DNA of 42,571 nt from a virus. The position numbers and the translations under genes are program-made. Below are positions 9,301-31,726 of this stretch, piece after piece. The stretch covers positions 23,969 through 66,539 of the IMG/VR virus record IMGVR_UViG_3300030085_002899; one strand, given 5' to 3'. Numbering within the stretch: the first letter of the stretch is position 1; each line of letters starts with the position of its first letter. The notes beneath the pieces were generated by a model. That model saw only the letters and a list, made by a program, of their open reading frames with translations, was not told the origin of the DNA and did no database searches.

Positions 9301-9578
9301 TGGCTCGTAACTCGTTAGCAGGAAAAAGTTCGGGTAAAAGCAAAAGCGCAAAACATTATGCAAAAAACAAGTCGTCTCGTAAGAAAAAAAATGAGTACGA
9401 CAAAAAGTACTCTTCTACTACAAAAAGAAAAAAATACCGTTCATCTTTAAATAAAGCTAATAAAAAAGCCAAAACTTATGGTAATAAGGATGGCTTGGAT
9501 ATGTCGCATACTAAAAAAGGTAAGTTAGTTAAAGAAAAACAATCTAAAAACAGAGCAAGAAATCGTGGTAAAAAGTAA
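9300..9578 (+). CDS. Basic phage protein with DxSH...NRARN motif
   Basis: 92 aa, Lys/Ser-rich. A conserved core is visible: YDKKY, KYRSSLNKANKKAKTYGN, DGLDMSHTKKGKLV, then SKNRARN. I recognise this arrangement as a small uncharacterised phage protein with a His in DxSH and NRxRN, faintly like an HNH-type layout. No enzymatic function is established as far as I know. Probably virion or DNA associated. One-base overlap with the amidase-like gene; 14-base overlap with the phosphoesterase gene. Confidence 0.6.
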   Translation: MARNSLAGKSSGKSKSAKHYAKNKSSRKKKNEYDKKYSSTTKRKKYRSSLNKANKKAKTYGNKDGLDMSHTKKGKLVKEKQSKNRARNRGKK

Positions 9579-10887
9579 AAAAATTGAAGAATACTTAATT
9601 AATCACCCTGAAAAATTAAGAAAAGACTATTCTGATACAGCAAAACTTTTTGATGCTACCTATGAGCAAGTAAGAAGTATAGCTAGACGCATAAGGGCAA
9701 GTTATGAAAATGCATTTGAAATAAGTCAAAACTCAACTCATAACGATGAGAAAATAACTACAAACGAACAAAAAGACTCGTTAGTTATATCTGTAGAAGA
9801 CAGCAAAAGAGTAAAATCACTCGACGACCTTATTGAAAATTGTAAAGTTGACCTTGACACATGGGAAGTAGATTGGTTTGATATTGGTACATACGAAGTT
9901 ACTGGTTTTGACAATGATAGAAAGCCTGTAACCGTTACTATGTATAGAACTAAGGCTAAATTTAAGAAGATAGATATATGGAAAAATATCAGTATATTAA
10001 AGGAGGACCTTAAAAACGATTTATTTGAAGCCTTCAAATCATACTCTTTACAGCCAAATTATAAAACTGATGATAAAGACATGTCATCTGATAAAGAAGG
10101 CTATCTACTTGAGATTGGGGCATACGATTTACATCTTGGTAAGTTGGGTATTGATGGTGATGATTATTCACTCGATATTGCTAGGAGAAGGTTATTTTCT
10201 GCTATTAATTCCTTATTTGACAGAGCAAGAGGTTTTAAAATCGAAGAAATAGTATTTGTAGTTGGTAATGATTTTCTTAATATAGATAAAGATAAACCTT
10301 TTGGTTCTACTACTAAAGGAACACCTCAAAACAATACTGTATCTGCATACGAAGCTTACAGGTACGGTAGAAAATTACTTGTAGAGTGTATAAACTTTTT
10401 AGCAGAAAAAGCTCCAGTAAGTGTAATAGTAATACCAGGTAATCACGATGAAGAATCTATGTTACATATGGGAGATGCCTTAGAGGTATTGTATGAAAAT
10501 ACACCACACATAAGGGTAGATAATTCAAGACCACTTATGAAAGCATATAAGTATGGTGAATGTTTACTTATATTTGACCACGGTGATAGAGTTAAAAACT
10601 ACAAAAATCTTGCATCTGTTATATCGCAACGTTTTAGAGATGTATGGAGTAGTGTAAGGCACATAGAAGTCCATAGAGGGCATCTACATAGCTTAAAAAC
10701 AAATATTATGGGTCAGGTAGAAGAGCTGAACGGAATAGCTGTAAGGCATTTAGGAAGCATGTCGCCAACTGACCAATGGCATGATGATAGTGGATACCTA
10801 TCTACAGTTAAACGAGCCCATGCTTTTATATGGCATAAGAAAAATGGTATGCAGTGTGAGTATTATTACAATGTACCATTTAACTAA
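9565..10887 (+). CDS. Metallophosphoesterase with N-terminal HTH-like region
   Basis: 440 aa, GTG start at 9565. Residues 1-47 look like a helix-turn-helix (KLFDATYEQVRSIARRIR). Calcineurin-like motifs are all present: DLH at 188-190, GND at 234-236, GNHDE at 292-296, HGD at 339-341 and GHLH at 372-375. These residues hold two metals for phosphodiester cleavage. Phage versions are usually annotated as DNA phosphoesterases or exonucleases of the SbcD/Mre11 superfamily. The HTH suggests the substrate is DNA (inference). It lies near the 3' end of the rightward late operon, away from the replication genes. Confidence 0.85.
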   Translation: MVKSKKIEEYLINHPEKLRKDYSDTAKLFDATYEQVRSIARRIRASYENAFEISQNSTHNDEKITTNEQKDSLVISVEDSKRVKSLDDLIENCKVDLDTWEVDWFDIGTYEVTGFDNDRKPVTVTMYRTKAKFKKIDIWKNISILKEDLKNDLFEAFKSYSLQPNYKTDDKDMSSDKEGYLLEIGAYDLHLGKLGIDGDDYSLDIARRRLFSAINSLFDRARGFKIEEIVFVVGNDFLNIDKDKPFGSTTKGTPQNNTVSAYEAYRYGRKLLVECINFLAEKAPVSVIVIPGNHDEESMLHMGDALEVLYENTPHIRVDNSRPLMKAYKYGECLLIFDHGDRVKNYKNLASVISQRFRDVWSSVRHIEVHRGHLHSLKTNIMGQVEELNGIAVRHLGSMSPTDQWHDDSGYLSTVKRAHAFIWHKKNGMQCEYYYNVPFN

Positions 10888-12261: not shown

Positions 12262-12681
12262 TTATTTTAAGTATTTGTTATACAACTCTTCAGGCATTTC
12301 AAAAATACCTGTATTGTTTATAGATGCATTTTCTGGTATTTCTTCATTGAAATAAAGCCAAGCAGATATTGTATTTATATCTTCATCTTCGTAGTTTGCT
12401 ACATGGTCTTTAATAAATAGTATATCTACTTTTTTTCTTTTATACCAAACAGGATGACACTCTAGGTTATCTAAAGATTTAAGTGTATGCCTATCTACTT
12501 TATAGACCTCTCCAACAATGTTTGTATTTTCTAAAGATTCAGAAACGTAGGGTATACCAGCTTCGTACATAGCGTACTTATTTTTAGTAACCCCAAGCCC
12601 TAAATACTCAGAGCCTAACATCAAAATATTATTAGCTTTACCTCTTTTTAAAGTTCCATATACAAAAACAATTTCACTCAT
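12262..12681 (-). CDS. Gamma-glutamylcyclotransferase (AIG2/GGCT-like)
   Basis: 139 aa. VFVYGTLKRG at 5-14 is the substrate-binding signature of the AIG2/YtfP/GGCT fold. Glu74 in LDNLECHP is the likely catalytic acid; the WYKRKKV strand and the late WLYF strand also fit. The family cleaves gamma-glutamyl amines or peptides to 5-oxoproline. It overlaps the exonuclease gene by one base. Together with the amidoligase and class II amidotransferase of the same operon it makes a gamma-glutamyl/amide chemistry set. Confidence 0.88.
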   Translation of the reverse strand: MSEIVFVYGTLKRGKANNILMLGSEYLGLGVTKNKYAMYEAGIPYVSESLENTNIVGEVYKVDRHTLKSLDNLECHPVWYKRKKVDILFIKDHVANYEDEDINTISAWLYFNEEIPENASINNTGIFEMPEELYNKYLK

Positions 12682-13454
12682 TAGATTTGTATTATACGGT
12701 TAAACATACTATAACTATCTTGACCTGCTTCTTCTATCTCATTAAAAGATTGAATGTTTGATATACCAGCTTTGTAGGCTTTTCTACCATCTTCTAATGA
12801 ATTAAAGTCTACTACTACAACATCATAAGGAGCTTTCTTTTCTATAAATACAAAATAGAATTTGTGTGCTTTCATTCCATCTAAATAAAATGCAGCTTGA
12901 ACTCCATATGAATATTTCTTAATAGACTCTAGAATACTTTCTATATCTATAGACTTGCAAGTTTTAATATCTACTATATAGTTTTCTTTTGTGTTATAGT
13001 AATCTACTTTAGATTTACATTTTGCACCTTCTAATTCAAATAGATTTATTTTTTCAAACTCACCATTTTCCTGCAACACTAGCTCTTTATATCTAGGATG
13101 ATTGCTTAAACTTTCCTGCATATTAATAAGCATGTTTTCATACTTACCTGGTACGTGGTAGGGCACATCTTTATTTGCTTCCTTCCAATCTGTTATATAC
13201 GCTTTACCTGCTTTAGTTCTCCTGTCCATATCAGGTTCGAAAGCGTATAGTTTTTTAAACTCTTCTGGCTCTAACATCATAGCATGGAATGCAGACCCTA
13301 CAAGCATTGCTTCGGTTTCTACACTTTGTTGCATAGCATAATCGAATTGCTTTTTGCTTCCTTGAAGGGCCTGCTTTACCATACTAGCTGATATATACTC
13401 TCTATCTTGAAAGTAATTTTCGTTTGTAATAATACCGTTGTTATCTAATTTCAT
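12681..13454 (-). CDS. PD-(D/E)XK exonuclease (RecE/exo VIII-like, DUF3799-like)
   Basis: 257 aa. The layout fits the RecB/RecE-type nuclease fold: GSAFHAMMLEPE at 53-64, Asp151 in KCKSKVDYY, the catalytic IVDIKT at 160-165 (D162, K164) and YGVQAAFYLDGM at 183-194. It should degrade one strand from dsDNA ends to expose ssDNA for the Sak4-like annealing protein and SSB of the same operon. It is coupled to RusA upstream by a 4-base overlap and to GGCT downstream by one base. Confidence 0.88.
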   Translation of the reverse strand: MKLDNNGIITNENYFQDREYISASMVKQALQGSKKQFDYAMQQSVETEAMLVGSAFHAMMLEPEEFKKLYAFEPDMDRRTKAGKAYITDWKEANKDVPYHVPGKYENMLINMQESLSNHPRYKELVLQENGEFEKINLFELEGAKCKSKVDYYNTKENYIVDIKTCKSIDIESILESIKKYSYGVQAAFYLDGMKAHKFYFVFIEKKAPYDVVVVDFNSLEDGRKAYKAGISNIQSFNEIEEAGQDSYSMFNRIIQI

Positions 13455-13825
13455 TTTAAGACTTTAATAATTACTCCTGCTTTTTCTTTATCTACATGAT
13501 ACCCACTAAAATGTGGTATAATAATATCGCAGTTGTCATCATCAATCCAACCATACTCAACCATAAGGTCTTGTACTGTTTGTGCAGGATTAATATAATC
13601 GAACTTACGTTTGCTGTTTCTTATGAAATAAAAGTCAACTATTATAGGTAGCTTAGGATTTTCACCAATAAGCTCTATAAACTTTTCTTTGTTTTCTATA
13701 TAAAAAGATTTACTAGCTTTAATATAGTTTCTTGTTGACTTGCTGTGTATAAGATACTTGCCCGTCCATTGCTTTCCATTCTTACTAGAACTAACATTAC
13801 CTGGTATAAATATTTCTTTACTCAT
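13451..13825 (-). CDS. rusA: RusA-like Holliday junction resolvase
   Basis: 124 aa from ATG 13825, which overlaps the upstream stop by 8 bases; the ATG at 13849 would overlap by 32. RusA features: IFIPGNVSSSKNGKQW near the N-terminus, then RKFDYINPAQTVQDLMVEYG followed by WIDDDN. The Asp in the FDxxN motif and the DDD cluster supply the metal ligands. RusA dimers resolve four-way junctions formed by recombination or replication. Directly between the NinB-like and exonuclease genes. Confidence 0.88.
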   Translation of the reverse strand: MSKEIFIPGNVSSSKNGKQWTGKYLIHSKSTRNYIKASKSFYIENKEKFIELIGENPKLPIIVDFYFIRNSKRKFDYINPAQTVQDLMVEYGWIDDDNCDIIIPHFSGYHVDKEKAGVIIKVLK

Positions 13826-14201
13826 TTGGGTCAGGTATATAAACACCAAGCTCTTCTATACAAAACCTTTTGATTTGGTCTATGTATGTTATCATTTCTT
13901 TGCTTGATATTCTAGTTGTACTTCTTATAATTTTCATCCATTCACCATTTACTATTTCTTTTTTGTACAAGAATTTTTCTTTAAATACATTATGCATTTC
14001 TTCTTTCTCGTAACCTAAAGATTTTGCTGGTAATGAAACAACAACACTCCAATAATATTTATTTAAGTTTGTACTTCTAGGTACATTTTTAGTTATGCTA
14101 ACTACTACTGACTCTCCTTCTAAACTTTTAAGGTAATCATCAAGTTTGTACTTATCTGTAAATATTATTTGATTGTGTAATATTTTTGCTGAATGCTTCA
14201 T
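13818..14201 (-). CDS. NinB-like recombination protein
   Basis: 127 aa. RSTNLNKYYWSVVVSLPAKS, YEKEEMHNVFKEKFL, STTRISSKEMITYIDQIKRF and the end LGVYIPDPNE match the NinB/Orf family as seen in Bacteroidota phages. Lambda NinB (Orf) binds ssDNA and SSB and helps load recombinases. It sits between SSB and RusA, a typical recombination setting. A stable hairpin (14208-14254) lies just before its start and may limit or tune translation. Confidence 0.75.
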   Translation of the reverse strand: MKHSAKILHNQIIFTDKYKLDDYLKSLEGESVVVSITKNVPRSTNLNKYYWSVVVSLPAKSLGYEKEEMHNVFKEKFLYKKEIVNGEWMKIIRSTTRISSKEMITYIDQIKRFCIEELGVYIPDPNE

Positions 14202-14207
14202 AATAAC

Positions 14208-14254
14208 AAGCAGCAGCCCATCGGGCCGAAGGCCAGTTCCCTGGGCTACTACTT
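14208..14254 (-). ncRNA. Stable two-part RNA hairpin before the ninB-like gene
   Basis: In the leftward transcript a 13-bp stem pairs AAGUAGUAGCCCA with UGGGCUGCUGCUU (two G-U pairs). Inside is a second stem GGCC-UUC-GGCC separated by an asymmetric internal loop. The ATG of the ninB-like gene follows 7 bases after the stem, in UUGUUAUU, so there is only a weak U-tract. It may be a processing site, an attenuator, or a translation-control element between ssb and ninB. Much more GC-rich than its surroundings. Confidence 0.65.
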
Positions 14255-14263
14255 TATTATATA

Positions 14264-14806
14264 TTAGAATGGCATATCGTTAGGAGCTTCTGAGTCAGCA
14301 GTATTAGCAAACTTACAAGCTTCATTATACGCACGCATATCTGTTTGTGATAAACCTTTGTTATACTTTACATCAAACGTAATAGGTTTGTTTTCAGGAT
14401 TAGAAAACTTATACTCTATGACGTGTCTAATCTCAGGCTTACCATCTGAATTATTAGTCCAGTACTCACGCTTAGATAAACAAACATTTACTTTCTTACC
14501 TACAGCTTCTTTACAAGACGCTATCCAATCATTAAACTCACGTACTCCACAATTGTGTAAGAACTGCTTAAATATCTTAACCCTTATTTCTTTAGCTTTT
14601 TCTGAAGTTTGTGAATCGCTACCTAAGAATTTTAATTTTGCAATAGAGCCATTGGCTGCTTCTACTGTAAATTCTACGTATGGTATCTTCGGTTTCTTAG
14701 GTTCTTTATCAGAAGATTTTACGCTTTTTACTTTTACTAGATAAGCACCTTCTTTTAAGTAAGAAGACTTTTCTTCTAGCACTACTGAATTCATGTTTTC
14801 AAACAT
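14264..14806 (-). CDS. Single-stranded DNA-binding protein (SSB-like)
   Basis: 180 aa from ATG 14806, 19 bases after the Sak4-like stop; an ATG at 14866 would overlap that gene by 41 bases. It begins MFENMNSVVLEEKSSYLKEG. An OB-fold-like beta pattern is visible (GAYLVKVKSVKSS, YVEFTVEAANGSIAKLKF, KKVNVCLSKREYW, VIEYKF). The very end, SEAPNDMPF, matches the acidic SSB tail (DDxPF) that docks recombination and replication partners. Position between the Sak4-like ATPase and NinB supports the assignment. Confidence 0.78.
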   Translation of the reverse strand: MFENMNSVVLEEKSSYLKEGAYLVKVKSVKSSDKEPKKPKIPYVEFTVEAANGSIAKLKFLGSDSQTSEKAKEIRVKIFKQFLHNCGVREFNDWIASCKEAVGKKVNVCLSKREYWTNNSDGKPEIRHVIEYKFSNPENKPITFDVKYNKGLSQTDMRAYNEACKFANTADSEAPNDMPF

Positions 14807-14825
14807 TTCTTTTTGTTTTTTTTGG

Positions 14826-15461
14826 TTAGTTATAATACTCTTCGCACTTTTCAATGACCTGTGCAAGGTCGTTTTCTATATACAAATCTTCGAACATACC
14901 CATCGGGCTTTTCGCAGAGTCGCTTCCATTGGATTGTGTTCTAAATCTAAACTTAGTTCCTCCATCTCCATAGTAGTTGTCTGTAAATAAACAGCATACA
15001 AATTCTTTTTCGACACGCTTCTTCCATCTGTTCCCGTCAACAGCAACAAATCTTTCTTGTACTCCTGAATCGCTGTCGTAAGCACCATCAATAGCTAAGT
15101 ATATAATATACTTGTCTGTATTCTTGGAAAGGTTTAGTATCCTATCTATTTCTTTATTATAGAATGACCACACATCAAAGCCTTTAAATCTAATATCAGC
15201 TTCTCTATATATCATTTCTATTAAACTAGTAAACGATTCTACTACTATAGTTTTAATCTCATCAGAGGCCATAGCTTTCTCTATAGCAGAGTTAAATGTA
15301 GATAAGTTAGGAACTGCTACGTTCTTAAACTTATTAGCACCTTTAAATGGTAGTTGTTTACGTTCTGTATTTAATACCGCAGTTGTGTTAGGGTCTAAAT
15401 TCCTTAAGGATGATGACTTACCTGAGCCACTCTTTCCTACTACAATAATGTTTGGTTTCAT
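14826..15461 (-). CDS. Sak4-like RecA-fold ATPase / annealing protein
   Basis: 211 aa. Walker A GKSGSGKS at 9-16 and a Walker B-like strand KTIVVESF. Short RecA-core proteins of this size next to SSB are the Sak4 group of phage single-strand annealing proteins. The segment TDKYIIYLAIDGAYD and FRTQSNGSDSAKSPMGMFED near the end fit the AAA_24-like family. It overlaps the upstream gene by 4 bases and is followed by the SSB, its usual partner. Confidence 0.8.
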   Translation of the reverse strand: MKPNIIVVGKSGSGKSSSLRNLDPNTTAVLNTERKQLPFKGANKFKNVAVPNLSTFNSAIEKAMASDEIKTIVVESFTSLIEMIYREADIRFKGFDVWSFYNKEIDRILNLSKNTDKYIIYLAIDGAYDSDSGVQERFVAVDGNRWKKRVEKEFVCCLFTDNYYGDGGTKFRFRTQSNGSDSAKSPMGMFEDLYIENDLAQVIEKCEEYYN

Positions 15462-15751
15462 TTTTTCTTTTGATTTTTAATAAATTCTACTACTGATTCG
15501 TACACCTCGTCTATATCACTATATAAACTAATGTTAAGCATTTCTTGTGGTACTCCTTCACAATCTTGCTCTATCTTTAGTACTACGGGTCTTAACCAAT
15601 CCCAAGAGGTGTGGTAATGCAAGTCCATCAAACTTCTATTGTTTGAGATAAGCCCCACGTCTTCTACCCTCTCGTCAGGAAAGGCTACCATATTACCATT
15701 ATGGATTATCTCACATCCCATAAATTCTGCTATAAGTTTGTTTGATTTCAT
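15458..15751 (-). CDS. Hypothetical protein common in Bacteroidota phages
   Basis: 97 aa. A LIAEFMG start, the core LHYHTSWDWLRPVVLKIE, and EVYESVVEFIKN at the end form a pattern I recognise from uncharacterised proteins of Bacteroidota phages and mobile elements. No function known to me. It overlaps both neighbours by 4 bases (ATGA), so it is translated with HU and the Sak4-like protein, pointing to a replication or recombination link. Confidence 0.7.
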   Translation of the reverse strand: MKSNKLIAEFMGCEIIHNGNMVAFPDERVEDVGLISNNRSLMDLHYHTSWDWLRPVVLKIEQDCEGVPQEMLNISLYSDIDEVYESVVEFIKNQKKK

Positions 15752-15978
15752 TTTTTAGTTGGTAATTTAATTATCTGTTCTACTTTTAATTTATCAGGTT
15801 TTTTGTAGTGCTTTCTTTTCGATGTAACAAACTTAAAGTACCCACGCAGCATTATATTGTTTTCTTTAGTTAGCAATTCTTTTATGCTTTTAAAAGTTTT
15901 ATTTACAATACTTTCTACTGCGTAGATAGGTACGTTAGTTTGTTCACTTACTTTTCTTATAATTTGTTTATAATTCAT
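15748..15978 (-). CDS. HU/IHF-family DNA-binding protein
   Basis: 76 aa, slightly shorter than the usual ~90. IIRKVSEQTNVPIYAVESIV then LLTKENNIMLRGYFKFVTSK matches the HU dimerisation helices and the saddle strand (xxLxGFGxF replaced by IMLRGYFKF). The DNA-binding arms are short and Lys-rich (KRKHYKKPDKLKVEQ). It would bend or coat DNA during replication. It overlaps the DnaB stop by 11 bases. Confidence 0.82.
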   Translation of the reverse strand: MNYKQIIRKVSEQTNVPIYAVESIVNKTFKSIKELLTKENNIMLRGYFKFVTSKRKHYKKPDKLKVEQIIKLPTKK

Positions 15979-17284
15979 CTACTGTAAAGAAACTATTATC
16001 ACTAGAACTTTCAACAAATTTAGTAAATTTATTGTTGAAATCCAAATTGACACTACCTATACCTATGTTACGACCTTTAGCAAAAATGATTTCAGCTTTA
16101 CCTATTGTGCTGTTACCATTCTCATCAGATTCTATACCATAATATTCAGGTCTATAAACAAATACAACAGTATCAGCTGCTTGTTCTATTTCGCCAGACT
16201 CTCTAAGGTCAGCAAGACAAGGGCGACAGCCTGCTCTGTTTTGTACATTACGTGAAAGCTGAGATAAAGCCATAACGCATATGTCTAATTCTTTAGCTAC
16301 ATTCTTTAAAGCTCTAGCAATTTGAGACACCTCTTGCTCACGACTTCTACCTTTGTTGAAATTGTTAACTAACTGTAAGTAGTCAATCATTACAAGCTTT
16401 ACTTTTTTGCTAACAACATATCTTCTAATTCTGTTAATTAAATACCTTAGACTTGTGTTAGAACACTCGTCTATATACATAGGTAATGATTTAACTTTAT
16501 TAGAATAATCAATTACTCTATCGTAATCTTCTTTAGACAACTCACCTGAAGATATAGATTTGTTTTCTACATAGGATTCTGAACTAACAACTCTAGTTAG
16601 TAATTGATTAACTGACATCTCATACGAAAATACTACAGTAGGTATATCAGATTTAGCTGCGTTTAATGCAAGGTTTAAAGATAAACTAGTCTTACCCATA
16701 GATGATGCACCACCGACTATAATTAAGTCTTGATTCTTCCAACCATTAGTGTGTTCATCTATAGATTTATAACCACTAGTTATACCTGTAATACCTTCTT
16801 TCTTGCAGTTTTCATGTACCTCATATAAGAAACCTTCAAGCTGATGATTCATGTCAGGAAGCCCAGAGTCATTGTGTTCACCAATACTCCCAAGCTTCTC
16901 GACAGAATATTCAATAAGACTGTTGATGTCTTCTTCACCACATCTCTTACTTAAATCTATAATTAGATTTTTAAACTTAACTAGTTTCTTTTCGTTTATG
17001 AGGTATTCGACACAACTTTCAAATGGCATATAGTAGGACTCGAATGACATAATTTTTGCTATTTCAAACTGCATATTAAATGCATTTAAGTTTGAAATTT
17101 TATCAGCTTTAATTATATCAAACGATTCCCCTTGCTGGTACAGCGTATCTATTACACTAAACACTTCCTTATGTAACAAACTTTCAAACAAGTCTGTATC
17201 CAGGACTGTAAAGAAAGTATAATAGTAATCCTTTTTTTGCATTAACTTAGCAAGCAACGCCTTTTCTACCTCATCTCTACTCAT
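15968..17284 (-). CDS. dnaB: Replicative DNA helicase, DnaB family
   Basis: 438 aa, the normal size. Helical N-terminal domain ~1-130, then the RecA-like motor: Walker A GGASSMGKTS at 191-200, YEMS at 221-224, Walker B VMIDYLQL at 298-305, the SQLSR motif at 341-345, and DLRESGEIEQAADTVVFVYR at 359-378 with the arginine finger region. It unwinds the fork 5' to 3' as a hexamer. No phage primase or loader is seen in the window, so host primase or genes outside it are needed. Two bases separate it from DUF932. Confidence 0.95.
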   Translation of the reverse strand: MSRDEVEKALLAKLMQKKDYYYTFFTVLDTDLFESLLHKEVFSVIDTLYQQGESFDIIKADKISNLNAFNMQFEIAKIMSFESYYMPFESCVEYLINEKKLVKFKNLIIDLSKRCGEEDINSLIEYSVEKLGSIGEHNDSGLPDMNHQLEGFLYEVHENCKKEGITGITSGYKSIDEHTNGWKNQDLIIVGGASSMGKTSLSLNLALNAAKSDIPTVVFSYEMSVNQLLTRVVSSESYVENKSISSGELSKEDYDRVIDYSNKVKSLPMYIDECSNTSLRYLINRIRRYVVSKKVKLVMIDYLQLVNNFNKGRSREQEVSQIARALKNVAKELDICVMALSQLSRNVQNRAGCRPCLADLRESGEIEQAADTVVFVYRPEYYGIESDENGNSTIGKAEIIFAKGRNIGIGSVNLDFNNKFTKFVESSSDNSFFTVDEL

Positions 17285-17286
17285 AA

Positions 17287-18159
17287 TTAATTAAGGCTTA
17301 TGCCTTTGTCTATTAAGTCTTTAACTAAAAGGTTAAGTACTTTGTTTGAATATTTATTTGAATTACCTGCAAGCATTTCATAATCAGCTGACCAATTAGT
17401 TTTATACTTATGTGTTAAGTAATTAGTTACTCCATTGAATAAACCAAAATGTGTATGACCTTTGTTGTCCATTTCCATTTTGATACACTCCATTAATTCC
17501 TTTCTTCTTTCAGCAGTCTTTCTTGGAATTTTCTTAAGCTTAGAGCTAGCTATAATATCAGCAGTTTTTTCTATTAACTCTGAACTTGGAGAAGCATCAA
17601 TAAGTTTTGTGTATAGTTTCTTTAAGCCAGACATGTTTCGATTAATCATTTCATTAATCTTATCTGTATTAATTTGCTCTACTTGCTTAGTGTGTTTGAT
17701 AACATGAACATTATCTTTATTGGACATTAATATAGAAAACATATTTGCACAACTGTGCATTCTAGTACTAATACCAAACACTAGTTTTTGACTACCATCA
17801 TGTGAAGAGAGTGCATAAAGATACTTATCTATCTTGTCATCACCAAATACATCATAACTATTTAGCTTAATAAAAAAGTATATTTTTTTACCTCCAGCAA
17901 ATGAACCGCATCTAGATTCATCTAAGTTGTAAGAACCATCTTCAAGTTTATCAAGTATAGTATTTAATAAATCTTCATTCTGTATTACTGTATATTGTTT
18001 ACGCACTGGTCCTAATGCTTGACCTGTTTGGTCATTAACAGTAGCAAAGAATGGTGTTTCTGCATAGTCATCTGCATGCAATGTATTATATGTATGCATT
18101 CTAACTTTGCTAACGGTAAAGTTTAACTGACCATATTCTAAAAATTCTTGTTTAGTCAT
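17287..18159 (-). CDS. DUF932 phage/plasmid protein
   Basis: 290 aa. DUF932 features: an N-terminal strand region, ALGPVRKQYTVIQNEDLLNT, the GGKKIYFFIKL strand, a YLYALSSHDGSQKLVFGIS block, STRMHSCANMF, and a helical C-terminal part ending HKYKTNW. The family is common beside phage and plasmid replication genes; its biochemical role is not established. Its ATG overlaps the upstream 53-aa ORF stop by 8 bases. Confidence 0.88.
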   Translation of the reverse strand: MTKQEFLEYGQLNFTVSKVRMHTYNTLHADDYAETPFFATVNDQTGQALGPVRKQYTVIQNEDLLNTILDKLEDGSYNLDESRCGSFAGGKKIYFFIKLNSYDVFGDDKIDKYLYALSSHDGSQKLVFGISTRMHSCANMFSILMSNKDNVHVIKHTKQVEQINTDKINEMINRNMSGLKKLYTKLIDASPSSELIEKTADIIASSKLKKIPRKTAERRKELMECIKMEMDNKGHTHFGLFNGVTNYLTHKYKTNWSADYEMLAGNSNKYSNKVLNLLVKDLIDKGISLN

Positions 18160-18313
18160 CTTCTAAAAGTTTTTTAAGTTTAGTTATAGAAATTAAAAGT
18201 TCATTGTCTTCATCAGGTAAATATTCACCGCAATAATTAATGTACATAGCAGTAATATCTTTAGCTGTTTTTTCAATAAATTCTAATTCTTTTTTAATTT
18301 TTTCTATATCCAT
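18152..18313 (-). CDS. Small acidic helical protein (53 aa)
   Basis: ATG at 18313 (start MDIEKIKKELEFIEKTAKDI) and an end in LLEDD. It overlaps the DUF932 start by 8 bases (ATGACTAA). It follows the structured RNA at 18327-18416 by 13 bases, so its translation may depend on that element. Helical, acidic, no family recognised. Confidence 0.6.
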   Translation of the reverse strand: MDIEKIKKELEFIEKTAKDITAMYINYCGEYLPDEDNELLISITKLKKLLEDD

Positions 18314-18326
18314 AATTTTGTATAAA

Positions 18327-18416
18327 AATATATAAGGCGCACGTCCAATTCGTCAGGCTCGCACTAGTGAGACGGTCTTAAAAGAAGGTACACTACCTCT
18401 TCTTACCTTATATATT
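18327..18416 (-). ncRNA. Multibranched structured RNA between amidoligase and 53-aa gene
   Basis: In the leftward transcript an 11-bp perfect terminal stem pairs AAUAUAUAAGG with CCUUAUAUAUU (18406-18416 and 18327-18337). It encloses one long hairpin (GAAGAGGUA-GUG-UACCUUCUUUU, with a bulge) and a second arm CGUC...GACG that contains the palindrome CACUAGUG. The outer stem includes the stop codon of the amidoligase gene. No known class recognised; it is not a canonical tRNA. It could protect or process the mRNA between two operon segments. Confidence 0.65.
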
Positions 18417-19881
18417 AAAGTTTAACTCCAAATCTAGAGGCTCTAGCTTTTACATAAAGCCAAACCTTTTCAAAATCTTTGCTGTTAAGCGAGTATTTAA
18501 GAACATCTTTTAAAGTTATTCTATGCTTATCACTCAAACCACAATTCCATATACGTCGTTGTTGGTTTTCAGCAAATTTTACAATAGACATACATATTAA
18601 AATCCAATTATAGATTTTATTAAAGTCTAGTGTACCACTATGATTACGAAATTCAATTGTATCAGGTCCTGTTGCACAAGAATAATTAGTCATATTTAAC
18701 CAATAATATCTTTGGCTATTGTAGTGACCACCAGGATGGTTTTTCTTCTTATTGTATGTCCTATCTATAACCATGTTCATAATTAACTTACCAAGATTAT
18801 CTCTATAATTTCTAAAGTTTAATTCTGAAACATAATTAGGTAGTTTTCTACAATAAGTATTATCATTCCTAGATTGAGGTAACATAGCGTATAAATCAGA
18901 TTCTATTTCTTTACACAACCTAGCTACCATAATAGAAAATCTACGATTAAAAGAAGCACCACCTATATGAACATGAACACCACACTTTCTATCTACTTTA
19001 GCGTTGTGTTCATTTAAGTAGTCACACATTTCTCTAATAGTTTTTATGCCTTTATTACCATGCAGTACACCTGAAACGAATTCATGACCATCAGTTGAAC
19101 CGTCATAGACAGCTTTCATGTTTATGTTTGGTGTATAAGGAACGTCTTTAGAGAAAGAAGTTTCTAATTCAACTCCAAAAGTATATTTCATACCAGATGT
19201 TTTCGTAAAGTCTACAAATGCTTCTCTTGTGTAAATATCTGTAAAAGCTGAATCAAAAGTTTCTCCTGTTGTGTTATAGCTACAACAATAGTCTGTATCT
19301 TCATGAACATATTCATCACAACAGTCTCTATAAACAATTCCATGCATTTCTGCAACTTCTGAATCTATATAATATTCGTCGTTATAACATATATAGTCTT
19401 CACTTGTAGAATAACCTTCTTCATATCTACCTGTCCATACATAATTGCAGCAGGTTTGTTCAGCACACAATCTTACACCTGAACCATTAAAACTTTCATC
19501 AGGTTCTAAGACACAATAAACATCATTATCATAAGTATCATTGAACAAAACAAAACCTTCTGCTATAACGCAGTATAGTATATAGTTTTGTTCTAATATT
19601 TTAAGATACTTAATTATTAACTCTTTGTCTGGATGTTCTCTAGGACTTCTAAATCTTAACCATTCAAGTAAAGACCTTTCTCTTGTAACGCCAAACGCTT
19701 CAAACTCTATATTAAAATTACAACCGATAAGTATTTTAATTCTTTCGAATTCTGTTTGAGTAAAGCTTGATAAATCTATAGGCGGAACTTCAACAAATTC
19801 ATCTGTATAATCTCGTACAGATGTTAATACAATTTCTTGTCTTCTTTCTTCTACGAATAAATCTAAGGTATTTGTTGGCAT
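18415..19881 (-). CDS. Amidoligase (COOH-NH2 ligase, glutamine synthetase fold)
   Basis: 488 aa. The Amidoligase_2 core starts at ~230: YTFGVELET at 233-241 (metal-binding Glu pair), VYDGSTDGHEFVS at 258-270, CGVHVHIGG at 300-308 and IEFRNHSGTLD at 409-419. This set defines the ATP-dependent glutamine-synthetase-like amidoligases, which join a carboxyl group to an amine. The N-terminal ~225 residues are extra and Cys-rich (C139, C144, C145, C165, C187, C188, C199, C200), perhaps a metal-binding substrate module. The same operon has a class II amidotransferase and GGCT. Substrate unknown; a small peptide, a protein tail or cell-wall peptide are options. Confidence 0.88.
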   Translation of the reverse strand: MPTNTLDLFVEERRQEIVLTSVRDYTDEFVEVPPIDLSSFTQTEFERIKILIGCNFNIEFEAFGVTRERSLLEWLRFRSPREHPDKELIIKYLKILEQNYILYCVIAEGFVLFNDTYDNDVYCVLEPDESFNGSGVRLCAEQTCCNYVWTGRYEEGYSTSEDYICYNDEYYIDSEVAEMHGIVYRDCCDEYVHEDTDYCCSYNTTGETFDSAFTDIYTREAFVDFTKTSGMKYTFGVELETSFSKDVPYTPNINMKAVYDGSTDGHEFVSGVLHGNKGIKTIREMCDYLNEHNAKVDRKCGVHVHIGGASFNRRFSIMVARLCKEIESDLYAMLPQSRNDNTYCRKLPNYVSELNFRNYRDNLGKLIMNMVIDRTYNKKKNHPGGHYNSQRYYWLNMTNYSCATGPDTIEFRNHSGTLDFNKIYNWILICMSIVKFAENQQRRIWNCGLSDKHRITLKDVLKYSLNSKDFEKVWLYVKARASRFGVKL

Positions 19882-20024
19882 AACTTAATGGTATTATCTA
19901 TTATACACTTAAGTTCTTCAATATCAGGACTTTTTCCTTTACGACTCTCAAGGTTTTCTACAGCTTGAGATAACTCATTAGCAAATTCTGAATCTGCGCA
20001 GAGTATAAGTAGTTTTTCTAACAT
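19863..20024 (-). CDS. Small protein between amidotransferase and amidoligase (53 aa)
   Basis: ATG at 20024, one base after the amidotransferase stop; the TAG stop lies 19 bases inside the amidoligase gene. The sequence starts MLEKLLILCADSEFANELSQ and is mostly helical. Its position locked between the two enzymes makes it a candidate partner, carrier or substrate peptide. This is inference from position only. Confidence 0.6.
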   Translation of the reverse strand: MLEKLLILCADSEFANELSQAVENLESRKGKSPDIEELKCIIDNTIKLCQQIP

Positions 20025-20025
20025 A

Positions 20026-20961
20026 TTACACGTAAATTTCTTGTTCGACTAAATCTAAAAACATTTGTATTTTTTCTATATCTTTTTCGTCAATAGAATT
20101 AAACTCTTTCATGTTTTTAAACATTTCATTAACTGATTCAAATCCTTGTGACATACAGTTATAATAATCTTCAGTATAAGGTTCAGGTAAACTATTTGTA
20201 TCTAGTACGTTAAAAGACCTATTCCATGTATTCTCTTCTGCTTCAGTCCACGAAGATTTGATTGAAGCCGTACCGTTTCCCATGTAATCTCCATACTCGT
20301 ACCAATTTTTGCTATTAACTTTCGTTATAGCTGTAACAGGTATTTTAACAGAGTCAACAAGCTCACCAGTAGGAGAGTATATAAATAACTTATCCTTAGT
20401 TACTTCTTTAACTTTATTTTCGTCAAATAAAATATCTAAACATTCACGTCTTGAACTAAAGTATATACCAGTTTCATCTCTGTATCTAAACAAAGGATTA
20501 TTTCTACGATATACATAAAGTTGACCATCGCTTTGAGTAAATACAGCGTTAATTGTACCACCAAAAGAACCTAAAGTAGCATAGTCATCAGTCTTTTTAA
20601 GTACGCTATATATTGCTTTTGAATCAACATCTACGTCATCTAACTCGTGGTCAAATAAAACATCTTCAAAATTGTCTAACACACCATTGTGTACACCAAC
20701 GTATTTACCGTAAGTATAAGGGTGTGTGTTCTCAGCGGTTTTAGCACCATGAGTTCCATACCTAGTATGACCTATAAACAATTGTGATTTTGTTTCATCC
20801 ATTAATGATAAAAGGTTAGGAGAGTCATCTAAGCATTTGTATATTTTTCCATCTGTATACAAACCAGCTGAGTGTCCGCCTCTATTATCATTGTCGTGCA
20901 TCATAAACATTAATTTGTTCATGTTAGCACCTTCTCCTATATATGCAACTATTCCACACAT
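20026..20961 (-). CDS. Class II glutamine amidotransferase (GAT-II, Ntn hydrolase)
   Basis: 311 aa. Met1 removal exposes Cys2 in MCGIVAYIG, the nucleophile of GlmS/PurF-type amidotransferases. Supporting motifs: RGGHSAG (27-33), IGHTRYGTHG (63-72), HNGVLDN (91-97) and DSKAIY (113-118). It should hydrolyse glutamine and release ammonia or act as an amide hydrolase. There is no SIS or phosphoribosyltransferase domain; the C-terminal ~110 residues are unique. Lies two genes upstream of the amidoligase, which could use the ammonia or release a product of the GAT. Confidence 0.9.
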   Translation of the reverse strand: MCGIVAYIGEGANMNKLMFMMHDNDNRGGHSAGLYTDGKIYKCLDDSPNLLSLMDETKSQLFIGHTRYGTHGAKTAENTHPYTYGKYVGVHNGVLDNFEDVLFDHELDDVDVDSKAIYSVLKKTDDYATLGSFGGTINAVFTQSDGQLYVYRRNNPLFRYRDETGIYFSSRRECLDILFDENKVKEVTKDKLFIYSPTGELVDSVKIPVTAITKVNSKNWYEYGDYMGNGTASIKSSWTEAEENTWNRSFNVLDTNSLPEPYTEDYYNCMSQGFESVNEMFKNMKEFNSIDEKDIEKIQMFLDLVEQEIYV

Positions 20962-26953: not shown

Positions 26954-29188
26954 ATGGCAGTTAATAATCATGGGTTTCCTAGACAAGCTATTCCTGATAG
27001 CGAAAAAACAAAAGAATGGTGTATAGATAACTTACGCTCTATAACTAGATTTCTAGGTGGAGCTAATTCATCTGCTGATAACTTTCTTAATAATAGGAAT
27101 AAAGATATAGCAAACTATGCTATGTATAATGGTCATATTAATACAAAAGACTATGAATACATAACTGACCAATATGGCTTGCCTTTTCCTGCACAAATGG
27201 CAAACTTTCCTTTAGCTCAAACTAAAATAGATTTACTTGTAAATGAAGATACTCAAAGACCTTTAGATAAAAAAGTTACATCTATTAATAAAGAAGCTGC
27301 TCTTCGTAAAGAAAAGTTTAAAGTATCATTAGTTGCTAATAAATTACTTGAAGACATAAATAATCAATTTGCAACTGCTTTTGGCGTTAAGCCACCAACT
27401 GAAAATGGTGACTTTCCTGTGCCAGATGACATTGATGAGTTCATGCGATATGAATACAAAGAACTTATTGAGGAAGTGTGTCAAGATGGTTTAGACTACC
27501 TTATACAAAAATATAGACTTAAAGATGTTTTTGGAGTAGGATTCAGAGATTTTTTAGTTACAGGTAAAGAATTCTATAAAGTATATGTAAAAAATGGCGA
27601 CCCTTTTGTAAGAAGAATAGACCCACGTAGTGTTATATGGGATTCATCTATACAAAGTGATTATTTAGAAGAAGCAAATTGGGTTGCTGAAGAACGCTTC
27701 TTGTCTGTAAATGAGGTAATTGACGAGTATAGAGAACAACTTACTAAAGAAGATGTACAAAAACTTGAAGAGATACGTCAAATAGATGGTATAGATAAGT
27801 TGTCTGACTTTAATGCAGATATTGAGTGGATTGATTTTGATAAAGACAAAGGTGTTCGTATACGTGTTGTTACAGTAGAATGGAAATCAGTTAAAGAAAT
27901 TAATTATAAGATTTCTGAAAATAAACACGACCCTTTTAATCCTTTTAAGAAAATTGTAAAAGAAAATTACCGACCACGTAAAAAAGAAAAAGTAGAAAAA
28001 AAGTTTGTAGATGACATATGGGAAGCAACTGAGATAGGTGGTCAAATATATGTTAACTGTAGACGTAGACCAAATCAAGTACGTTCTGTAGATGACGCTG
28101 GTACTACACCTCTTTCTTATGTAGGATGTATACACAATTACTCAACAGGTCAAAGTACTTCATTATGTGACTTATTGCGTCATGTACAAATGATGTATAA
28201 TATAGTACATTACCACATTGAACTTACATTAGCAAGAGCAGGTGGTAAAGCTGTCGTTTATGATGTATCTCAATTACCAACTAATATTGGTATGGATATG
28301 CAAAGTGTAATGTATCATCTTAAAACAGATGGTATTATTCCTATTAATAGCCAAATGGAAGGACAGGAAGCTTCTAGATTTAACCAATTCCAACAAATAG
28401 ACTTTACCCTTTCAAACTCTGTAAGACAGCTTATAGAGCTTAAATTAATGTTAGAACAAACAGCTGGACAAATTTCTGGTGTATCCCCACAACGTGAAGG
28501 TTCTGTATCTCAATACGAGTATGTAGGAAATGTACAACGCAGTGTGGTACAATCTTCGTTATCAACTAAAGGTTGGTTCTTTCAACATAATGAGGTTAAA
28601 AAAATGATATTCGAAAGAATGTGCAACCTTATGAAAATTTGTTGGTCTGAAGGTAAAAAAGCTGGTTATGTTTTAGGTGATGGTGGTTATAAATTCTTAT
28701 CTGTATTACCTGATATTGCATTAAATGACTATGGTGTATTTATAGGAGACTCTGGTAAAGATGATGCTATGAAACAAGTAGTTCAACAAATGTCACAGGC
28801 TGCGTTACAAAATGGAAGTTTGACTATGTTAGATGCTATCAAAGTTTTAAAAGCAGATAGTCTAAGTGAAGCAGAAACAATACTTGAACGTGGAATGGAC
28901 ACTATGAAAAAAATTCAAGAACAAGCTCAACAACAAGCACAGCAACAACAACAAGCTATGCAAGAGCAAATAGCACAGCAACAACAAATGGAAAGCGATA
29001 AGCAACAAGCTGAAATGCAAAATAAATTAGATATAGCTAAAATAGCAGCAGATTCAAGAGTTACTGTAGCTGAAATTAATCAAGAAGCTAAGTATGAATC
29101 TGAAATGCTAAAAGAAAAATCTAAAATACAACTCGAAGGAGTTAAAGGAAGCGTACAGGAACAATTAAATAACCAATCAGCAAAATAA
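26954..29188 (+). CDS. Portal protein
   Basis: 744 aa. The sequence contains portal-type segments: DFLVTGKEFYKVYVKNGDPF, RRIDPRSVIWDSS, EANWVAEERFLSVNEVID, and a long helical stem. A Gln-rich coiled coil follows at ~645-680 (QQAQQQQQAMQEQIAQQQQ) near the C-terminus. Size and style match portals of crAss-like and related Bacteroidota podoviruses. Twelve copies form the DNA channel at one capsid vertex. It lies between TerL and scaffold, the normal order. Confidence 0.9.
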   Translation: MAVNNHGFPRQAIPDSEKTKEWCIDNLRSITRFLGGANSSADNFLNNRNKDIANYAMYNGHINTKDYEYITDQYGLPFPAQMANFPLAQTKIDLLVNEDTQRPLDKKVTSINKEAALRKEKFKVSLVANKLLEDINNQFATAFGVKPPTENGDFPVPDDIDEFMRYEYKELIEEVCQDGLDYLIQKYRLKDVFGVGFRDFLVTGKEFYKVYVKNGDPFVRRIDPRSVIWDSSIQSDYLEEANWVAEERFLSVNEVIDEYREQLTKEDVQKLEEIRQIDGIDKLSDFNADIEWIDFDKDKGVRIRVVTVEWKSVKEINYKISENKHDPFNPFKKIVKENYRPRKKEKVEKKFVDDIWEATEIGGQIYVNCRRRPNQVRSVDDAGTTPLSYVGCIHNYSTGQSTSLCDLLRHVQMMYNIVHYHIELTLARAGGKAVVYDVSQLPTNIGMDMQSVMYHLKTDGIIPINSQMEGQEASRFNQFQQIDFTLSNSVRQLIELKLMLEQTAGQISGVSPQREGSVSQYEYVGNVQRSVVQSSLSTKGWFFQHNEVKKMIFERMCNLMKICWSEGKKAGYVLGDGGYKFLSVLPDIALNDYGVFIGDSGKDDAMKQVVQQMSQAALQNGSLTMLDAIKVLKADSLSEAETILERGMDTMKKIQEQAQQQAQQQQQAMQEQIAQQQQMESDKQQAEMQNKLDIAKIAADSRVTVAEINQEAKYESEMLKEKSKIQLEGVKGSVQEQLNNQSAK

Positions 29189-30283: not shown

Positions 30284-31726
30284 ATGAAGGTATATAGTGC
30301 TAAGTACGACCCGTCGTACAACACAGCTGACAACTCGCTTGTCGCAAACATGCTAAAGTACCCTGAGATTGCGAAGAAAATTATCGAATTATATCCTCGC
30401 TACTCAATGACGTACTTACTAGAACGATTAGGTTTCGGAGCTAGTGAAAAAATTATTGGAGCTAACGCTTTCGAATGGAAAGTAATGTCTCGTTACAAAA
30501 AACCTGCTGTCTTAGATGTAGCTGATGCTACTGACCGTAGTGCAGGCGATGTTGTAACTTACAAGATTGCTTCTGCTGAAGCTGCAGGTGAATACTGCCA
30601 TTTAGCAGTAAATGATGTTGTTCGTTTTGATACTACAGGTACAACTGGTATTGTAACTGCAGTAGGAACACAAAATACAGGAGCTGATGGTCAAACTGAT
30701 GTTACTGTAAGATTATTACAAGCATTTACAGCTGACTTAACTACATCTACTAGATTAGGTGTAATTGGTTCTGCGTTTGGTCAAGGTTCTCTTGGTGATG
30801 AAGTAGGTGAAATGTACGCTTACCCAGAAACTCACCGCAATCACTTAACTCTTTCTCGTAGAAAGTGTAAGATTAACGGTATTGATTTACACGATGTTAC
30901 TTGGGTAGAGCACAATGGTCACAGACTATGGTACTTTACTAAAGAGCAACAAATGACTGACCAGTTCATGTATGAGCTTGAATTGAATCGTTGGTTTGGT
31001 AAGTCTTCTGTATCAGGAGATATTACATACCCAGGTCAAGAAGGTAGTGCTACTACAGGTTTCCCAGTTATGGGTGATGGTATCATTGCACAAATTGATT
31101 CAGGTAATGTATTTAACTACACTGCTGGTGCGTTAACTGATGATATTTTATTAGATGCTATGGCTTCTCTTTCATTGAACACATTATCTCCAACAGGAAA
31201 CGAATTTGTTTGTTTCACTGGTATGGCTGGTATGGTTCAATTCCAAAAAGCTATGAAAGCTTTTGTTGGTAATGGTGTAGCTAATGCAGGTTCTGCTGGT
31301 TCTATGATGGTTGACAAAGCTGGACAAGATGTTGCAGTAGGTGTAAACTTTACTACTTACCACGTATTAGGTAACAAGTTAACTGTAGTTCACAACCCTT
31401 GTTTTGATGACCCTAATATTGCGGCATTAACTTCAGGTGTAGGTAATTTCGACTCTGCTGAATTATCTGCATTGATGGTATTTATGGACATGTCAGTTCA
31501 AGATGGAGTTGCTAACGTTGAGCTTATCGCTAAAGGTGCTGAAGGATACAACAGAAACTACGTTAAGAAATACGTTCCTGGTATGATTAACCCTAACGAC
31601 CCATCTTCATTGATGGCTGCTAATGGTAATGATACTTTCGAATGTCACATTCTTTCTGAGTCTGGTGTTATTATTCGTAACCCATTATCTTGCGGTATTT
31701 TAAAGCCAACTGGTCTTAACATATAA
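30284..31726 (+). CDS. Major capsid protein
   Basis: 480 aa, directly after scaffold. Begins MKVYSAKYDPSYNTADNSLV and contains strand/loop segments typical of the HK97-like coat of crAss-type phages (FEWKVMSRYKKPAVLDVADA, HRNHLTLSRRKCKINGIDLH). No N-terminal delta domain is obvious. Codon use is biased (more C-ending and CGT codons than neighbours), as expected for the most abundant virion protein. It shares the transcript with the decoration protein and ends at the terminator at 32227. Confidence 0.9.
   Translation: MKVYSAKYDPSYNTADNSLVANMLKYPEIAKKIIELYPRYSMTYLLERLGFGASEKIIGANAFEWKVMSRYKKPAVLDVADATDRSAGDVVTYKIASAEAAGEYCHLAVNDVVRFDTTGTTGIVTAVGTQNTGADGQTDVTVRLLQAFTADLTTSTRLGVIGSAFGQGSLGDEVGEMYAYPETHRNHLTLSRRKCKINGIDLHDVTWVEHNGHRLWYFTKEQQMTDQFMYELELNRWFGKSSVSGDITYPGQEGSATTGFPVMGDGIIAQIDSGNVFNYTAGALTDDILLDAMASLSLNTLSPTGNEFVCFTGMAGMVQFQKAMKAFVGNGVANAGSAGSMMVDKAGQDVAVGVNFTTYHVLGNKLTVVHNPCFDDPNIAALTSGVGNFDSAELSALMVFMDMSVQDGVANVELIAKGAEGYNRNYVKKYVPGMINPNDPSSLMAANGNDTFECHILSESGVIIRNPLSCGILKPTGLNI

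Follow-up and report, generated by a model that had tools for sequence, protein, structure and literature searches.

What would a marine phage do with three enzymes of amide and gamma-glutamyl chemistry encoded in one block of genes? The question is raised by the virus record IMGVR_UViG_3300030085_002899 (66,539 bases), from a marine, bacteria-infecting virus, of which bases 23969-66539 (42,571 nucleotides, hereafter the window) were analysed. A minus-strand block at 11.0-21.7 kb of the window encodes a class II (Ntn) glutamine amidotransferase (GAT-II), a 53-amino-acid protein (open reading frame ORF53a), an amidoligase, a series of intervening genes and a gamma-glutamyl cyclotransferase (GGCT). 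A sequence-only reading of this block had proposed an operon for a possibly new pathway of peptide ligation or cell-wall amidation. As judged from sequence, the gene set is a compact three-enzyme version of a published phage cassette, of the type found in LUZ24, RIO-1/HP1, phiEco32 and some crAss-like phages, and its three enzymes are very probably linked functionally in one shared pathway. As to what the pathway does, we lean, by a modest degree, toward a compact cassette for amide/gamma-glutamyl chemistry, perhaps acting on an envelope precursor.

Three enzymes with conserved catalytic residues

All of the open reading frames named by the sequence-only reading are present on the minus strand (Table 1), and its assignment of the three enzymes is upheld by Pfam (curated cut-offs, exceeded by all three), by concordant PHROGs and by motifs. 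GAT-II possesses a GlmS/PurF-like glutaminase domain (residues 1 to ~180) with the N-terminal nucleophile Cys2; it matches PHROG 4736 (E 3.7e-23), and its profile matches the GlmS structures 4amv and 1xff. Its motifs (a Met-Cys start with Cys2, HTRYGTHG at 65-72, VHNG at 90-93 and VDVDS at 110-114) resemble those of GlmS-like relatives, and Cys2, Arg67, Asn92-Gly93 and Asp113 are common to nine aligned homologues, so that the post-Met Cys, the HxR, NG and D motifs and the profile match that mark the class are all present. Compared with L001, a contig of the same phage group, most codon changes in the gene are silent (28 silent, 14 replacement), as they are in dnaB (26 silent, 4 replacement).

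The GGCT matches PF06094 at 74.3 bits (cut-off 22.8) and human gamma-glutamylamine cyclotransferase (GGACT, 3jub) at a phmmer E of 1.9e-8. Along with the profile, the YGTL motif of the family is found (as YGTLKRG), and in the alignment the candidate catalytic Glu74 stands opposite Glu82 in human GGACT (3JUB), the catalytic residue that is mutated in 3JUD. Codon changes relative to L001 are too few to judge, both for this gene (6 silent, 7 replacement) and for ORF53a (1 silent, 1 replacement).

The amidoligase, scoring 88.6 bits with PF12224 (cut-off 22), is poorly conserved over residues 1-145, moderately over 150-225, and has its catalytic core at 224-487. Glu238, Glu240, Asp260, His303, His305, Glu410 and Arg412 show no variation among nine close relatives, and the ExE and the terminal ExR are also retained in distant homologues. 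The core is modelled well and the first 145 residues poorly, and the fold search dealt mainly with residues 224-487. The core (232-486) aligns with 1tt4 (VIA Z 12.7 over 228 residues), YbdK (1r8g, VIA Z 12.4) and plant glutamate-cysteine ligase (GCL; 2gwc, VIA Z 12.1; Foldseek E 2e-4), and further fold matches include glutamine synthetases and PafA/Dop. A search of the amidoligase profile against the sequences of solved structures gave no match. In the model, the core has the fold of the gamma-glutamyl ligase group, a fold that does not tell the substrate, and with the YbdK/glutamate-cysteine ligase/glutamine synthetase superfamily the protein has this predicted fold in common at a sequence identity of only 11-14%, from which a substrate is not inferable. 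The profile, the glutamine-synthetase-like fold and the ExE/HxH/ExR residues all place it among the amidoligases. With catalytic motifs kept in all three proteins, none of them has the appearance of a dead enzyme.

The N-terminal portion of the amidoligase, singled out earlier as Cys-rich, indeed holds 11 Cys in ~225 residues, but, as far as could be judged, it does not behave as a stable or conserved domain: the CC...CC signature (~185-205) is lost in the related contig L032, and the homologues of Cellulophaga phage phi14:2, cr108_1 and the Leptolyngbya phage have N-termini that are long yet dissimilar. A Zn-binding domain was considered and rejected, as the Cys are not kept in L032, model confidence is low to moderate, and there is no family match.

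Linkage of the three enzymes

Whether the three families occur together in related phages was a check set by the sequence-only reading, and they do, in ten other IMG/VR viral contigs (G001, G004, G005, G019, G020, G022-G026), some near-identical to one another. Of two further contigs, G002, without GAT-II, begins inside the ligase gene, and G021, with GAT-II and ligase and no GGCT, ends just after the RusA gene, before the GGCT position.

In a second phage group, represented by two named phages along with 13 viral contigs, GAT-II and GGCT are fused into one polypeptide. The N-terminal GAT-II domain (Met-Cys, HFRxAT, SNGT) is followed by a GGCT domain (YGTLK, LEGHP), with catalytic residues in both halves; in a model of the fusion, residues 2-162 match the GlmS glutaminase (Z 12.1) and residues 160-273 match GGACT (Z 13.3). 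Of the 15 fusion records, 11 also have the amidoligase, and in two of the four without it the contig ends before the expected place. Two partners fused next to the third are strong evidence for one pathway. Since Pfam GATase models miss or only graze the GAT-II domain of these proteins, the fusion is easily overlooked; a genome scan for it returned only unrelated N-terminal GAT-II matches, in Gammaproteobacteria, and no paper on a GAT-II-GGCT fusion was found in the literature, though such a paper may exist. The notion of one operon holds for linkage, supported by synteny and by the fusion, but not for closeness, considering the replication and recombination genes that separate the GGCT gene from the pair.

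The small protein between GAT-II and the ligase

ORF53a is present in the window and in ten other contigs, at a length of 53-54 aa, and always in the position in which the sequence-only reading had noticed it, between GAT-II and the amidoligase. Its identity to the window copy (53-98%, seven aligned) is comparable to that of GAT-II (49-95%), with conserved positions spread over residues 1 to 50. It is absent from L032, where the GAT-II and ligase genes overlap directly. The earlier suggestion that it is a peptide substrate did not survive, since conservation runs the whole length, without a variable core, and the size is near-fixed, unlike a variable precursor; a precursor of the type of ribosomally synthesized and post-translationally modified peptides (RiPPs), for which a pattern of conserved leader and variable core would be expected, was likewise rejected. 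A subunit would fit this pattern better than a peptide precursor, and we infer that ORF53a may serve as an adaptor or a subunit.

Relation to known phage cassettes

In RIO1-like podoviruses, the cassette, known as a 'peptidoglycan modification cassette', consists of a gamma-glutamyl amidoligase, a second amidoligase, an ATP-grasp protein, a GGCT and a glutamine amidotransferase; it is common to phiEco32, LUZ24, PaP3 and others, and has been proposed to modify peptidoglycan against superinfection (PMC5498523). The same proposal has been made for a LUZ24-like phage, along with a possible role in preparing lysis (PMC11945000). Partial sets have been reported as well (PMC10580990, PMC11318856, PMC11253131), with Iyer et al. 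(2009) cited for such cassettes. The chemistry suggested by the sequence-only reading is therefore in line with a published hypothesis, but it is not new, as the cassette is already described.

The same families were found clustered in LUZ24, phi14:2 and an Alcaligenes phage, and also in the Leptolyngbya phage and cr108_1, but in the latter two GGCT was detected record-wide or not found. A PF14395 (COOH-NH2) ligase and an ATP-grasp match are present in each of these five phages. In the window's 66.5-kb record, PF14395 has no match, nor has it in the related contigs searched; ATP-grasp and ligase queries from LUZ24, phi14:2 and the Leptolyngbya phage have no match in the record, and ATP-grasp was not found in the related contigs searched. 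(Protein queries were used for ATP-grasp as PF13535 also matched none of the phages known to carry one.) Of the full cassette, then, GAT-II, amidoligase and GGCT are present, and the ATP-grasp and COOH-NH2 ligase are not found; because all five phages have the latter two, and the record and its relatives have neither, the window set appears to be a reduced version.

In RIO-1/HP1, LUZ24-like phages and phiEco32 (PMC5498523, PMC11945000, PMC3890496), GAT-II adjoins the amidoligase and GGCT belongs to the same block near replication genes, as it does here; the window set differs in that neither ATP-grasp nor PF14395 was found, ORF53a is inserted, and GGCT is 5.7 kb off. The closest annotated Bacteroidota phage is phi14:2 (Crassvirales), whose g037-g041 hold the families in one row, with 28% identity to the window in GAT-II and ligase; it differs in possessing the five-gene version, with ATP-grasp and COOH-NH2 ligase, and a genome of 100 kb. 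The annotated phi14:2 GAT-II (L020:3519-5435) carries ~30 partly hydrophobic residues ahead of the nucleophilic Cys; it may require processing, or its start may be misannotated. Phage C75C1 and its relatives (L023, L033-L045) encode the same three predicted activities, with the amidoligase adjoining and no PF14395 match in C75C1, but represent a different phage group, with GAT-II and GGCT as one polypeptide. The marine OM43 phages MEP401 and MEP402 encode an amidoligase (PF12224) and a GATase (PF13522), with no GGCT mentioned there (PMC10580990). One possible two-enzyme version is seen in a Lachnospiraceae phage, in which an amidoligase is followed by GGCT (L026:4713-5660; record W10 28231-28533), and clostridial prophages are reported to carry comparable pairs (PMC11318856, PMC11253131). 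To what has been published, the GAT-II-GGCT fusion and the conserved ORF53a add something, along with the predicted fold of the ligase core and the match of Glu74 to the catalytic Glu of GGACT.

The gene block and the host

The genes between GGCT and the pair (12681-18313) are co-directional, and their order is kept in related contigs; the exonuclease VIII-like gene directly precedes GGCT in the window and in several relatives. Matches to promoters in the window are at chance level, whereas terminator-like sites exceed chance, at positions that give no clear separation of GAT-II and ligase; an Rfam search of the window returned nothing. No terminal repeat was detected in the 66.5-kb record, which may be slightly incomplete.

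Table 1. Genes of the block, fusion proteins of the second phage group, and other features (positions are those of the window unless a contig is named)
Feature	Position	Strand	Remarks
GGCT/GGACT-like gamma-glutamyl(amine) cyclotransferase	12262-12681	-	139 aa; PF06094 E 1.6e-20
Exonuclease VIII-like	12681-13454	-	Pfam/PHROGs
RusA-like	13451-13849	-	named from similarity to phi14:2 g044, 49.6% identity
NinB	13818-14201	-	Pfam/PHROGs
200-aa ORF	between NinB and Sak4-like genes	-	
Sak4-like	14826-15461	-	Pfam/PHROGs
97-aa ORF	between Sak4-like and HU-like genes	-	
HU-like	15748-15978	-	Pfam/PHROGs
DnaB helicase	15968-17284	-	Pfam/PHROGs
DUF932	17287-18159	-	Pfam/PHROGs
Second 53-aa ORF	18152-18313	-	identical in L001, 92% in L002; precedes DUF932 in several relatives
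Amidoligase_2	18415-19881	-	488 aa; PF12224 E 7.5e-25, residues 265-434
ORF53a	19863-20024	-	53 aa; overlaps ligase start by 19 nt
GAT-II	20026-20961	-	311 aa; GATase_6 PF13522 E 4.7e-9
Fusion proteins	L041:10001-10885; L033-L045; L023:7503-8399; L024:7503-8720		mostly adjoining amidoligase
721-aa phage ORF	2950-5115	+	C-terminal Por_Secre_tail, E 1e-11
SbcD-like DNA repair exonuclease	9565-10887	+	PHROG 704, E 1.5e-61
Major capsid protein	30284-31726	+	crAss-like capsid family, E 2.1e-36
4026-aa ORF	L005:2376-14456	+	same record, upstream of window; no Pfam match

The crAss-like capsid, found despite a record of 66.5 kb (the relatives G022 and G023 are each 67.8 kb), and the Por_Secre_tail, a type IX secretion sorting domain and thus an export signal of host type borne by a phage protein, together point to a host among Bacteroidota.

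Proposed function and alternatives

In the scheme that we propose, GAT-II would hydrolyse glutamine and pass the nitrogen on, the former being the chemistry of the family and hand-over to the ligase the weaker inference. At the expense of ATP, the ligase would activate a carboxylate, which, to go by YbdK and glutamate-cysteine ligase, is probably a gamma-carboxylate of the glutamate type, and would join it to the ammonia from GAT-II or to an amine of the target; that it forms a gamma-glutamyl or carboxamide bond is likely. ORF53a may bridge GAT-II and the ligase, like the small subunits of other split amidotransferases, and GGCT would take off or recycle gamma-glutamyl-amide products in the form of 5-oxoproline, so that the modification would be limited or edited. 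The most likely target would be a cytoplasmic cell-envelope precursor (peptidoglycan stem peptide), its modification early in infection changing the host surface or wall; such a target can be put forward tentatively, at slightly less than even chance. The expression of predicted peptidoglycan modification genes of HP1 immediately on infection (PMC7082346) argues for this scheme. A more specific and rather doubtful version has GAT-II and a gamma-glutamyl ligase, held together by ORF53a as subunit or carrier, adding to a host target an amide or gamma-glutamyl group that GGCT removes; three enzymes would then do the work for which other phages use five, and the fusion version would represent this machine built from two polypeptides.

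Several observations weigh against the scheme. The envelope target is a hypothesis of the literature, and for none of the phage cassettes of this type does the literature found give an experimentally proven substrate, product or change of peptidoglycan. The core set varies, with no GGCT found in cr108_1, no GATase_6 match in the Lachnospiraceae phage, which has ligase and GGCT, and neither PF06094 nor GATase_6 matches in Porphyromonas phages, which have the ligase. GGCT is encoded 5.7 kb downstream of the GAT-II/amidoligase pair, beyond replication and recombination genes, and confidence in the amidoligase model is moderate (mean pLDDT 62.5).

The alternative that survives best, though unlikely, is synthesis or breakdown of a soluble gamma-glutamyl metabolite (of the gamma-glutamyl-amine or -cysteine type), which would serve the nitrogen or redox supply of the infected cell without any envelope target. 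The ligase folds nearest to the amidoligase are those of gamma-glutamyl ligases (YbdK, GCL), the GGCT has its closest counterpart in GGACT, whose substrates are gamma-glutamyl-amines, and the genes lie amid replication and nucleotide genes in several phages; a metabolite alone, however, would leave the dedicated GAT-II and the many single-ligase phages unexplained. Quite improbable is a post-translational modification (glutamylation or amidation) of proteins from host or phage, in which ORF53a might serve as tag or carrier: while the list of fold matches includes PafA and Dop (Pup ligase and depupylase) and a small conserved protein lies between the two enzymes, PafA/Dop rank below YbdK and GCL, and ORF53a does not end in the Gly-Gly/Glu pattern of a C-terminal tag and is lacking from L032 and, as far as seen, from the fusion group.

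Hypermodification of phage DNA nucleobases, in which GAT-II and ligase would furnish a base with amide groups, is very improbable: GAT-II domains are present in known deazaguanine DNA modification, and the operon is shared with replication and recombination genes, but no base-modification gene was recognised among the scanned open reading frames of the record. Equally remote is the prospect of chance neighbours acting separately, for which the 5.7 kb between GGCT and the pair and the partial sets in other phages could be cited, and which the fusion, the repeated linkage in unrelated phages and the conserved gene order make unlikely. An anti-phage defence system was also considered and rejected, the best PADLOC match being PDC-M02A at an E of only 0.025.

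Returning to the compact cassette for amide/gamma-glutamyl chemistry, its three-enzyme and two-gene (fused) versions narrow the question down to a handful of small soluble proteins and indicate the essential parts. Should an envelope precursor be the target, the cassette would reveal a way in which many phages change their hosts' walls in the course of infection.

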